This document shows positions 16,330-51,296 of a stretch of 64,000 bases of DNA, in pieces. The stretch covers positions 620,001-684,000 of the forward strand of contig NFUV01000001.1 of the NCBI GenBank assembly GCA_002127295.1, in the 5' to 3' direction. The notes beneath the pieces were generated by a model that was given only the letters and a program-made list of their open reading frames with translations, was not told where the DNA came from and did no database searches. Numbering within the stretch: position 1 is the stretch's first letter; each line of letters begins with the position of its first letter. The DNA comes from Chitinophagaceae bacterium IBVUCB2 (GTDB lineage: Bacteria; Bacteroidota; Bacteroidia; Chitinophagales; Chitinophagaceae). The position numbers and the translations under genes were made by a program.

Positions 16330-16393
16330 CCGCCCAAACGGGTTCTCATCTACATTGTTTAGCTTTCGTAAAATGCGCAGTTGTATTATACAG

Positions 16394-16440
16394 TACAAGA
16401 GTGCGACGCAAGGAACGATGATAGTAGTACTGTCGTTGGC
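16394..16440 (+). repeat. Dispersed ~47-bp element, copy 1 (valS leader)
   Basis: The copy starts TACAAGAGTGCGACGCAA, identical over 18 bp to the copy at 50283, then shares TGATAGTAG and CGTT-GGC with it. ACAGTAC (16390-16396) and GTACTGT (16427-16433) pair across it. It lies about 20-70 bp upstream of the valS ATG. See the matching finding. Confidence 0.7.
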
Positions 16441-16461
16441 AACATAAATTTATTACCTGCA

Positions 16462-19125
16462 ATGGAATTATCGAAAAACTTTGACCACAACGTAGCTGAA
16501 AAAAAATGGTACCAGCATTGGCTTGATAAAAATTATTTTCATAGTGAGCCGGATAACCGTGAGCCATACACTATTGTAATTCCCCCTCCCAATGTAACAG
16601 GTGTGCTGCACATGGGGCATTGCCTTAATAATACTATCCAGGATATTTTGATTCGCCGGGCAAGAATGCAGGGAAAAAATGCTTGTTGGGTTCCGGGAAC
16701 AGATCATGCATCCATAGCTACTGAAGCAAAAGTGGTTCAGATGCTCAGGGAAAAAGGTATTGCAAAATCATCACTCAGGCGTGAAGATTTTTTGAAGTAT
16801 GCCTGGGAGTGGAAAGAAAAATATGGTGGTATCATTTTGCAGCAGTTGAAAAAACTGGGTTGCAGTTTAGATTGGGAAAGGACATCCTTTACGATGGATG
16901 ATGATTACTATAAAAGTGTAATCAAGGTTTTTATTGACTTACATGAGAAAGGAATTATTTATCGTGGTTTAAGAATGGTAAACTGGGATCCTGTAAGTAA
17001 AACAGCATTAAGTGATGAAGAAGTAATTTTCAAAGACATTGATTCAAAATTATATTTTGTAAAATACCCATTAGTAGATGATAACAGTCAATTTATGACT
17101 GTTGCTACTACCCGACCCGAAACTATTCTGGGTGACGTAGCTATTTGTGTAAATCCAACAGATGAACGTTATGCTTCATGGATTGGTAAAGAAGTTATTG
17201 TTCCCATCATCAACAGGAAAATTCCCATCATTGCAGATGAATATGTAGATGCAGAATTTGGTACCGGTGCATTGAAGATTACTCCGGCACATGACAAGAA
17301 CGATAACGAACTAGGAAGAAAACACAACCTGAAAGCATTAAACACATTAGATGCAGAAGGAAAGTTTACTGCGGAAGAATTGGTTGATGATAACCCATCT
17401 GCATTAGTACTTTCTTATAATGGTGTTGACCGGTTTGAGTTGAGAAAAAAGATAGTTACAGATATTGAAGCATTAGGGCTGGTAGCAAAAATCGAGGATT
17501 ATAAAGGGCAGGTTGGTACGAGTGAAAGAACGGGAGCTATTATAGAATCCCGATTGAGTTTGCAATGGTTTATGAATATGAAAGAGTTTCTGAAAAGAAA
17601 TCCTGAAACATTAACTGCGGTGATGAATGATGAAATTACTTTTCATCCCGAAAAGACAAAGAATACATACAGTCATTGGTTGAATAATATTAAGGACTGG
17701 TGCATTAGCCGCCAGCTTTGGTGGGGGCAGCAGATACCGGCGTGGTACACACCTGATGGAGATTTTGTTGTTGCTGCTACAAGAGAGGAAGCTTTTGAAA
17801 AATTCAAAACTCAAAATTCAAAATTCAAAATTGAAGACCTTATACAAGATGAGGATTGCCTCGATACATGGTTCTCAAGTTGGCTTTGGCCGATGGAAGT
17901 ATTTAAAGGCATTAGTAATCCGGGAAATAAAGATGCTGAATATTATTACCCTGGTACTACATTAGTAACAGGACAGGATATTATTTTCTTCTGGGTGGCG
18001 AGAATGATAATGGCGGGTTTCGAATACAAAAAAGAAATACCATTCAAAGATGTGTACTTCACCGGAATGGTGCGGGATAAACAGGGAAGAAAAATGAGTA
18101 AGCAATTGGGCAACTCTCCTGACCTGCTTGAAATGATTGAAAAAGATGGTGCCGATGCTGTTCGGTTTGGTGTTATGTTTTCATCGCCGGCAGGAAATGA
18201 TTTGATGTGGGATAAGTCTGGTAATGAGCAAGGCAAATTTTTCATTAATAAAATGTGGAACGCATTGAAATTGGTGAAGATGTGGGAAGGGCGACAGTCT
18301 GAAAGTCAAAACGACGGAAAGATCGAAAACAGCTTCGCAACGGATTGGTTTGAGAATCGTTTAGCACAGGTACGAGTAGAATTAGATGAGCAGTTTAAAG
18401 ATTTCCGGTTGAGCGAATCATTGAAAACAATTTATTCATTGATATGGGATGATTTCTGCAGCTGGTATTTAGAATGGGTAAAACCAGGATTTGAGCAACC
18501 GATAGATAAAGCAGTGTATGAAAAAACAGTTGGTTTCTTTGAAGAACTGATGCAGTTACTACACCCATTTATGCCATTTATTACAGAAGATATTTATCAC
18601 CAGTTGAAAGAAAGAAATGATGATTTGACGGTGAAACAATATAAATCACTGAAATCTGTTGATGCTGCCATTATTGCTAATGCTGGCTTATTAAAAGAAG
18701 TTATTACTGCTATCCGTGATGCAAGAGTTAAAAACCAGTTGAAGCCAAAAGATACTATCAAGCTTCATGTACTTACAGATAGTAACGAAACATATAAGTC
18801 AATAGAAAGTATTTTATTAAAGCAGGTAAATGCCGAATCATGTTCTTATACAGGGGCTTCTGTTGCAAACAGCATAACCGTAGTTGTACAAAAAGATAAA
18901 TTCTTTATTGAAACAACCACTGTTTTAGATACCTCTTCGCAAAAAGAACAATTACAAAAAGACCTTGATTACCTGAAAGGCTTTTTGGTTTCCGTAGAAA
19001 AGAAATTAGGTAACGAACGATTCGTTCAAAATGCAAAACCTGAAGTAATAGAAATTGAGCGGAAGAAAAAAGCAGATGCCGAAGAAAAGATAAAAGTGAT
19101 AGAAGAAAGCCTCGCTACACTATAA
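16462..19125 (+). CDS. valS: Valyl-tRNA synthetase
   Basis: The protein is 887 aa from the ATG at 16462. The frame stays open upstream, but those codons run through the dispersed element and are not conserved protein. Class I signatures are VLHMGHCLNN (HIGH) and GRKMSKQLGNSPD (KMSKS). The editing domain has VATTRPETILGDVA and the anticodon region has FCSWYLEWVKPGF. A C-terminal coiled coil (about 820-887, QKEQLQKDLDYLKGF) is the ValS arm. The enzyme charges tRNA-Val in the cytosol. A heptamer tandem repeat (17799-17833) encodes a KFKTQNSKFKIE insertion between the catalytic and editing-proximal parts. A strong hairpin follows the stop. Confidence 0.97.
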   Translation: MELSKNFDHNVAEKKWYQHWLDKNYFHSEPDNREPYTIVIPPPNVTGVLHMGHCLNNTIQDILIRRARMQGKNACWVPGTDHASIATEAKVVQMLREKGIAKSSLRREDFLKYAWEWKEKYGGIILQQLKKLGCSLDWERTSFTMDDDYYKSVIKVFIDLHEKGIIYRGLRMVNWDPVSKTALSDEEVIFKDIDSKLYFVKYPLVDDNSQFMTVATTRPETILGDVAICVNPTDERYASWIGKEVIVPIINRKIPIIADEYVDAEFGTGALKITPAHDKNDNELGRKHNLKALNTLDAEGKFTAEELVDDNPSALVLSYNGVDRFELRKKIVTDIEALGLVAKIEDYKGQVGTSERTGAIIESRLSLQWFMNMKEFLKRNPETLTAVMNDEITFHPEKTKNTYSHWLNNIKDWCISRQLWWGQQIPAWYTPDGDFVVAATREEAFEKFKTQNSKFKIEDLIQDEDCLDTWFSSWLWPMEVFKGISNPGNKDAEYYYPGTTLVTGQDIIFFWVARMIMAGFEYKKEIPFKDVYFTGMVRDKQGRKMSKQLGNSPDLLEMIEKDGADAVRFGVMFSSPAGNDLMWDKSGNEQGKFFINKMWNALKLVKMWEGRQSESQNDGKIENSFATDWFENRLAQVRVELDEQFKDFRLSESLKTIYSLIWDDFCSWYLEWVKPGFEQPIDKAVYEKTVGFFEELMQLLHPFMPFITEDIYHQLKERNDDLTVKQYKSLKSVDAAIIANAGLLKEVITAIRDARVKNQLKPKDTIKLHVLTDSNETYKSIESILLKQVNAESCSYTGASVANSITVVVQKDKFFIETTTVLDTSSQKEQLQKDLDYLKGFLVSVEKKLGNERFVQNAKPEVIEIERKKKADAEEKIKVIEESLATL
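17799..17833 (+). repeat. (AAAATTC)5 tandem repeat inside valS
   Basis: Five 7-bp units (AAAATTC, AAAACTC, AAAATTC, AAAATTC, AAAATTG) lie in the coding sequence before QDEDCLDTWFSS. Gain or loss of one or two units would shift the frame. Confidence 0.85.
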
Positions 19126-49109: not shown

Positions 49110-50204
49110 CTATACAGTTTCTGCTATCCTCTCCCCGCTGATATTCGCATTACGCATGGCAATGCTGCGAACAACATGGGCCGCAAAACCTTCAAATGCT
49201 TTTTTAGTGATCACATCATCACTCATCATGATTGGCACACCCTGGTCACCTCCTTCACGGATGGTTTGCACCAACGGAATTTGCCCCAGAAATGGTAAAT
49301 CATATTCATCAGCCAATCGTTTACCACCATCCTTTCCGAAGATGTAATATTTATTGTCTGGCAATTCTGCTGGAGTAAAATAACTCATATTCTCTACCAA
49401 CCCGATGATAGGGACATTCAATTGTGCCTGGCCAAACATGGCAATACCTTTTTTTGCATCTGCTAACGCAACATCCTGTGGTGTAGTAACGATCACTGCA
49501 CCAGTTACAGGCACTGTTTGCATCAGCGTTAAATGTATATCCCCAGTACCGGGTGGCATATCAATTACTAAATAATCTAATTCGTCCCAAAACACATCGG
49601 TAATAAATTGTTTGATAGCACTGCTGGCCATTGGTCCACGCCATACCACTGCATTCTTTTCATCAACCAATAAACCAATGCTTATTAATTTCAGGCCATA
49701 TCTTTCCAATGGGGCAATCATGGGTTTTTCACCACCAACATCGATCATCATCGGCCGCTCCCCTCTTACACCAAACATAATTGGTACACTCGGACCATAG
49801 ATATCCGCATCCATCAATCCTACTTTTGCACCACCCTGTGAAAGTGCCAATGCAAGATTTGCAGCTACGGTGGATTTACCCACTCCACCTTTACCACTAA
49901 CTACGGCAATAATGTTTTTTACTTTTGGTAAAATTGTTTTGGCATCTGTACGTTTGGTAGTTGTATTAGCTGTAAAATTCACTTTTACATTCGCCTCTTT
50001 ATTCACTAATAATTTAATGGCATTGGTGCTGGCTGTTCCCATCATATCCTTCATGGGACAGGCAGGTGTGGTGAGTACAATGGTGAAGGAAACATCATTC
50101 CCATTGATCTCAATGTCCTTTATCATGTTCAGCGTTACAAGATCTTTTCCAAGGTCGGGTTCCTGCACATTGCTTAACGCTTCTAATATTTTTTCTTTTG
50201 TCAT
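49110..50204 (-). CDS. mrp: Mrp/NBP35-family P-loop Fe-S cluster carrier
   Basis: The protein is 364 aa from the ATG at 50204; the frame runs further up but through the dispersed element. An N-terminal DUF59/MIP18 domain (EKILEALSNVQEPDLGKDLV to CPMKDMMGTA) precedes the ATPase. The deviant Walker A is AVVSGKGGVGKSTVAANLAL, followed by LDYLVIDMPPGTGDIHLTLM. The stretch where other Mrp proteins have CxxC reads ENMSYFTPAELPDNKYYIFG and has no cysteine. Mrp proteins bind and transfer Fe-S clusters; the missing cysteines question this here or reflect a lineage-specific site. Confidence 0.93.
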   Translation of the reverse strand: MTKEKILEALSNVQEPDLGKDLVTLNMIKDIEINGNDVSFTIVLTTPACPMKDMMGTASTNAIKLLVNKEANVKVNFTANTTTKRTDAKTILPKVKNIIAVVSGKGGVGKSTVAANLALALSQGGAKVGLMDADIYGPSVPIMFGVRGERPMMIDVGGEKPMIAPLERYGLKLISIGLLVDEKNAVVWRGPMASSAIKQFITDVFWDELDYLVIDMPPGTGDIHLTLMQTVPVTGAVIVTTPQDVALADAKKGIAMFGQAQLNVPIIGLVENMSYFTPAELPDNKYYIFGKDGGKRLADEYDLPFLGQIPLVQTIREGGDQGVPIMMSDDVITKKAFEGFAAHVVRSIAMRNANISGERIAETV

Positions 50205-50282
50205 AATTTGTTGGTGTGGTACCGAAAAGACAGTGCTAAAATTGTAATACACTTCAATACACGATGAGTAGAGAACAGAACG

Positions 50283-50330
50283 TACAAGAGTGCGACGCAA
50301 CGAAAGTTGATAGTAGCAATGCCGTTTGGC
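50283..50330 (+). repeat. Dispersed ~47-bp element, copy 2 (upstream of mrp)
   Basis: This copy has the same 18-bp start as 16394-16440, then TGATAGTAG and CGTTTGGC. CAAC-GAAA-GTTG within it would form a GNRA-capped hairpin. It is antisense to the mrp leader. Confidence 0.7.
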
Positions 50331-50372
50331 CAATAATAAATAGAACTAAATGTTAAATATCCTTACTGCCGG

Positions 50373-51081: not shown

Positions 51082-51125
51082 CCGCTGATTTCCTTGATTT
51101 TTTTGAATTAAAGGATTTTTTGATG

Positions 51126-51207
51126 TAGCCAGCTGCATGGCTACTAGCATCGCCTGTTGCAATCCAAAGGATTGGGATTTTTATTTCTTCTGGAGAAGAA
51201 ATAAAAA
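51126..51207. repeat. Three tandem hairpins between CarboxypepD_reg-like and hbd genes
   Basis: TAGCCA/TGGCTA (about 51126-51143), AATCC/GGATT (about 51161-51173) and a 13-bp stem TTTTTATTTCTTC/GAAGAAATAAAAA (51178-51190, 51195-51207) follow each other. The last has a TGGA loop and ends T-rich on the minus strand. They may act as terminator(s) or form an RNA. Confidence 0.5.
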
Positions 51208-51296
51208 GACTCACACTTGTACTTCCTGTTCATTGGGCAACAAATACAATCTCCTTACATTTGTTAGTGAAACAATTAATCACTCTTGCCCTAAAT

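Follow-up and report, generated by a model that had tools for sequence, protein, structure and literature searches.

What is the short sequence that stands in the leaders of both valS and mrp in a 64-kb stretch of Chitinophagaceae DNA (the whole stretch is called the window below), and why does it stand there? An earlier note on this DNA had described a dispersed element of about 47 bp and had offered three readings of it, namely, a mobile repeat, a protein-binding site, or an RNA element. The copies of the element, their distribution, their placement relative to genes, and their fate at orthologous sites are considered here in turn, and the possible explanations are then weighed.

The Repeat Unit and Its Copies

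The 18-mer TACAAGAGTGCGACGCAA is the same at 16394-16411 and 50283-50300, as had been claimed. The unit to which it belongs is longer than first proposed: side-by-side alignment of the sites in the source genome gives about 77 bp, made of a left part (L) of about 24 nt, for example, TGCTGAGTAGCGAACAGAACGTAC, a core of 15 nt, and a right part (R) of about 38 nt, for example, CAGACGATGATAGTAGCAATGCAGCTGGC, with an A-rich end, and the profile assigns about this length to both copies (Table 1). Over the source-genome sites, the per-position information is close to zero upstream of about -27 and drops past about +55. The core, AAG[A/T]GTGCGACGCAA, is nearly invariant. A search of the source genome (4.0 Mb) with the 18-mer returned 22 exact copies, so the element is not limited to the two copies first seen, together with 50 sites at ≤3 mismatches. 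The 15-nt core has 50 exact occurrences in the same genome. A control with the reversed pattern gave 0 forward matches and 1 reverse match, which places the repeat far above chance. The profile search of the window also recovered a third copy, broken and lying on the minus strand (51120-51243); at this site, the core is intact in the orthologues of G001, G026, G009, and G033.

Table 1: Copies of the element and adjoining genes in the window.
Feature	Position	Strand	Remark
Copy 1 (L, core, R), leader of valS	16373..16449	+	Profile match E 5.4e-17
Core of copy 1, AAGAGTGCGACGCAA	16397..16411	+	Orthologues in G001 and G026 have T at the A/T position
Copy 2, between divergently transcribed mrp (-) and downstream gene (+)	50263..50338	+	Profile match E 1.4e-18
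Core of copy 2, AAGAGTGCGACGCAA	50286..50300	+	
Copy 3, L and GTACAAGTGTG (first half of core)	51212..51243	-	Profile match E 0.033; adjoins next part
Copy 3, hairpin-forming insert, TTTTTATTTCTTC-TCCA-GAAGAAATAAAAA then AATCCTTTGGATT, in place of CGAC at core centre	51161..51211	-	
Copy 3, GCAAC and R	51120..51160	-	Profile match E 1.5e-6
valS	16462..19125	+	Likely true start ATG 16462, common to orthologues without the element
mrp	49110..50204	-	Likely true start ATG 50204, common to orthologues without the element

The orientations agree with the earlier description: copy 1 runs in the sense direction of the valS leader, and copy 2 is antisense to mrp. Both are contained in mechanical ORF extensions: that of valS adds 27 codons from TTG 16381 and passes through copy 1, and that of mrp runs from TTG 50333 and passes through copy 2 antisense. 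The orthologues that are free of the element share the starts given in Table 1, and the false N-terminal extensions suspected for both genes indeed arise in annotation from the element.

A second core class, GTACAAGTGAGTGACACAAC, was found in 400 kb of a high-copy relative (G185), where its L and R are of the same styles as those of class 1. Class 2 is present family-wide and co-occurs with class 1. From class 1 to class 2, the dyad changes from GCGACGC to GTGACAC; the change is compensated, the dyad is kept, and intermediates are almost absent. A minor third core type, GATTGCGACGCAA, is also present. The repeat can reach more than 2,000 copies in a single genome.

Distribution among Genomes

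In a set of 200 genomes assigned to the Chitinophagaceae by their record titles, the exact core occurs in 107, and the number of copies per genome ranges from 0 to 1,526. Within the genus, the core (≤1 mismatch) is present in 20 of the 42 genomes searched, the source genome being counted in. Sister species differ widely, with 0 versus 344 copies in one genus (g5) and 143 versus 0 in another (g6). In an independent collection, all matching records but one are titled Chitinophagaceae or carry a vaguer Bacteroidota name. Outside the family, 2 of approximately 380 other Bacteroidota genomes gave a single match each, which is no more than expected by chance. The element is thus specific to the Chitinophagaceae, a family from soil and water. 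Spread by viruses was considered and, as regards class 1, rejected: viral contigs hold 97 class 1 matches, by estimate about the chance level for so short a pattern, and 15 class 2 matches, which exceed chance.

Placement Relative to Genes

Placement was counted in 400 kb of G185 with a simple, crude ORF caller, and the figures are therefore approximate. This region contains 192 intergenic copies. The 216 gaps of at least 90 bp hold zero, one, and two units in 65, 116, and 35 cases, respectively, as compared to 112, 58, and 46 gaps with none, one, and two or more under length-weighted random placement. Units are mostly single and nearly always number at most one per gene gap. Divergent pairs account for 31 of the 35 two-unit gaps; 23 of these 31 combine class 1 with class 2, and none combines class 2 with class 2. 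Where a gene ends on the A-rich side, the stop codon lies within about 15 nt for 34 of 69 class 1 and 17 of 32 class 2 copies. Tandem gaps show class 1 antisense to transcription 44 times out of 67, with no bias for class 2. Traces of a former second core next to single copies are few and barely above those in shuffled sequences.

It has also been observed in G185 (L206-L225) that the spacers of divergent pairs are often palindromic themselves, as in TTTCTGTTCATCAATGAACAGAAA, and the whole divergent-pair unit could extrude a long cruciform.

Evolution at Orthologous Sites

Copy 1 in the valS leader is shared with G001 and G026 only and is absent from about 20 congeners compared. At the copy 2 site, the core is intact in G001 and G026 and altered in G032; in many congeners, the mrp spacer is short (about 100 bp) and lacks the copy. 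For a wider comparison, elements of the source genome (G000) and of G001 were mapped on 1.2 Mb of G026 that had been chosen without regard to the core. An element was called retained when its core had at least 12 of 15 matches, which is a bias, and 14 elements were retained. Only 2 of 196 core positions are substituted (14 loci by 14 positions, the A/T position being excluded). At the same loci, L diverges by 18% and R by 21%, as compared to 12-22% in the flanks, so that both behave approximately as ordinary spacer DNA. The A/T position is toggled at 6 of the 14 loci. No copy with an intermediate state of core decay was seen in the G026 comparison, and only clean absence, deletion, or hairpin insertion was encountered. 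At one site, G001 holds a wholly different element where G000 and G026 share theirs. Many insertions are old, being common to orthologous sites, and active movement was not seen among them. Taken together, the frozen core, the toggling of its A/T position, and the swapping of elements suggest that other copies replace the sequence at a site, either in addition to simple selection or in its place.

Further repeats are found in and around the element. Hairpin-forming inserts replace the core centre in several copies, including the third copy of the window and three G026 loci (L331, L345, and L347). They consist of an AT-rich stem of 10-16 bp and a second small hairpin, and the stems are variable yet self-complementary. 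These inserts may represent another mobile palindrome, or else a long form of the core that is ancestral. The palindrome CCTGCCTACCGGCAGGCAGG, or a close variant of it, is inserted at varying points of or near the element in the G026 orthologue of L369, in L048, and in the pep-hbd spacer of G033 (L263). In the left parts of L369 and L373 (G001), TACTTCGACAAGCTCA, which we take to be a widespread bacterial repeat, or a close variant stands just before GTAG, and the orthologous element of G026 is without the insert. The mrp spacer of G012 (L270) carries another dispersed-looking repeat, AACACGGATTAAAGGGATATTCACGGATT...AATCCGTGTTCATCTGTATAATCTGTG, where G000 has copy 2; certain left parts of the element (CATCCGTGTTA) are similar to this other repeat.

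RNA Structure

The inverted pairs pointed out in the earlier note exist in the letters, though in part only as described: ACAGTAC/GTACTGT occurs in copy 1 only, and CAAC/GTTG is placed differently in copies 1 and 2. When 5′ halves were joined to the 3′ halves of other copies, the folding energy of both L and R was unchanged. Pairing between L and R was at most weakly indicated, the three sets giving z values of 0.25, -2.2, and -1.8, and a scan for pairs by mutual information returned register shifts and subfamily effects only. On the half-swap and L:R tests, the inverted pairs therefore do not represent conserved structure. The earlier note had named a total of only two copies and a lack of conserved pairing as counting against its proposal; the copy number contradicts the first of these, and the second was found for everything except the small core dyad. 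The element has no match in Rfam above the gathering score, and compensatory pairing of the kind that marks structured cis-regulatory RNAs is limited to the core dyad, with its one compensated change between classes. The RNA option of the earlier note is not supported by these tests, nor by the occurrence of copies in both orientations to genes. The 5′ end of a group II intron was considered for the likeness of GTGCGAC, with no Rfam match.

Search for a Driver

No Y1 transposase (PF01797) was detected in the source genome, in G026, in G185 (1,475 copies), or in G066, G114, and G094. A PF01797 protein is present in 37 of 50 genomes, copy-free ones included, and its presence does not track the copy number of the element. 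Among 30 PF01797 loci, 6 have any copy nearby, and one, in the genome with 1,526 copies, has a copy on each side. Mobilisation of the element as a REP by a RAYT was rejected on these grounds, RAYT genes not usually being flanked by the element. No recurring mobile-element family was found among the flanking genes, either when 96 source-genome proteins were compared with Pfam or when 263 proteins of relatives were compared with each other; the gene between two facing copies at L040 encodes a 2-oxoacid dehydrogenase E2. Divergent pairs show no target-site duplication, direct-repeat length being 5.39 versus 5.34 in shuffled sequences, and their outer arms are no more alike than random.

Comparison with Known Repeats

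The element shares several traits with the REP and BIME sequences of enterobacteria and pseudomonads (GTAG REPs and REPINs). Like these, it is a short, extragenic, over-represented sequence with hundreds of copies, a dominant 15-16-mer is accompanied by few one-step variants, several classes occur per genome, and inverted pairs are formed, often of two different classes. It also differs from them. GTAC or variants beside a dyad of 7-9 nt take the place of the GTAG tag, the hairpin stem of 5-13 bp is lacking and the half-swap tests show no conserved stem, and no RAYT gene is linked. Moreover, the core is uniform across the whole family and conserved at fixed orthologous sites. Inverted doublets are the prevailing arrangement of REPs; the 192 copies counted in G185 include 31 divergent pairs and are mostly singles.

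BOX elements of Streptococcus pneumoniae are modular, intergenic, and found in both orientations, as is the present element. No sequence relation between the two is known; the order of the modules differs, and in the present element one module, the core, is frozen. Divergent pairs also look like the terminal inverted repeats of MITEs of DDE insertion sequences around a variable middle. A MITE was nonetheless rejected, as terminal inverted repeats with target-site duplication are lacking, the arms are uncorrelated, and no parent transposase was found.

A further comparison is with the CGTC-tagged REPs, which include Neisseria dRS3 and some Rickettsia palindromic elements and which are similar in having no dedicated transposase found and in forming hetero-pairs. 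Some of their families are reported from Bacteroidetes, and they are defined by a terminal CGTC, a stem of 8-9 bp, and a CCA-like tail (PMC3733652). The present element has CGTC only inside the dyad and not as a terminal tag, and this combination of terminal CGTC, stem, and tail is not found in it. The element is a novel REP/BIME-like dispersed repeat family, REP-like in arrangement and without the tested defining features of GTAG and CGTC REPs.

Interpretation

The element is probably a REP/BIME-type DNA repeat, short, non-autonomous, and dispersed over intergenic sites, with the core as a putative protein-recognition site. Two options of the earlier note, the mobile repeat and the protein-binding site, are both supported, probably together. 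In favour of this reading are the many copies in the family and their near absence outside it, the second class with its compensated dyad, the placement in gaps and close to stop codons, the frozen core, the empty orthologous sites, and the one whole-element swap (G001). A protein that recognises the core would account most economically for the frozen dyad. Such a protein would recognise the core dyad as DNA, in the form of either class. Through such recognition, copies of the element could enter new gaps, and its core sequence would be kept or restored, by binding selection or by repeated replacement by other copies. Where gaps are compact, the host may also use the element as a boundary site, in the manner of REPs. 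Against the dispersed-element reading, no driver was found, the flanking genes are ordinary, the pairs have no target-site duplication, and the many old, shared insertions gave no sight of active movement; in addition, the core is kept at fixed sites, where its loss would be expected of a copy that is purely selfish.

A rather unlikely alternative is a pure host function, in which a chromosomal protein binds the core as a boundary, topology, or regulatory site, one per gap and each kept by selection, and in which the apparent spread reflects the birth of new sites rather than transposition. The frozen core at fixed orthologous loci with drifting neighbours agrees with it, as do the placement of nearly always one unit per gap, the clustering behind stop codons, and the confinement to one family, as of a vertically inherited trait. 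However, copy numbers that swing from 0 to 344 within one genus, and to 1,500 in the family, mean that the site cannot be essential, and clean absences and whole-unit swaps look like insertion or replacement rather than birth by point mutation. It is quite improbable that the element is a true REP whose mobilising RAYT (Y1 tyrosine transposase) has disappeared from several of the genomes. The intergenic, multiclass, inverted hetero-pairs are as reported for REPs (PMC3733652, PMC3116915), a PF01797 protein is common in the genomes examined, and an atypical Bacteroidetes subclass, 2.6, is described as flanked by unusual repeats (PMC6006769), but G185 and the source genome yielded no Y1 transposase, its presence elsewhere does not follow copy number, RAYT genes usually lack flanking copies, and neither the end tag nor the stem is there. 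A structured RNA, as a leader or 3′-UTR motif, is the least credible reading and very improbable, because neither arm showed conserved structure in the tests of pairing. The compensated class change of the core dyad, the slightly better folding of R than of shuffles, and the hairpins of long-core copies would fit it, but pairing covariation is absent from both arms, the L:R signal is at best weak, copies lie in both orientations to genes, and Rfam gives no match.

Beyond the main reading, a bolder proposal is rather unlikely, though it may be stated. The Chitinophagaceae may possess a dedicated DNA-binding system, unrelated to RAYTs, for which the two core classes are cognate marks of gene boundaries throughout the genome, in divergent pairs and at most one unit per gap, and which both spreads the marks and actively resets their core. 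The element would then be a self-maintaining chromosomal punctuation of up to about 2,200 sites.

No earlier description was found in the literature searched, which falls short of all journals, and neither core appears in papers on such repeats. The repeat family is apparently undescribed, although in one relative (G185) about 70% of the tested gaps between genes are occupied by it. An old question about REP-like DNA, namely, how so small a sequence is preserved at a fixed site when everything beside it drifts, can be tested cleanly on this repeat. The two discrete core classes, together with sister species of which one has no copies and the other hundreds, make it tractable to look for the putative binding protein by comparative genomics.
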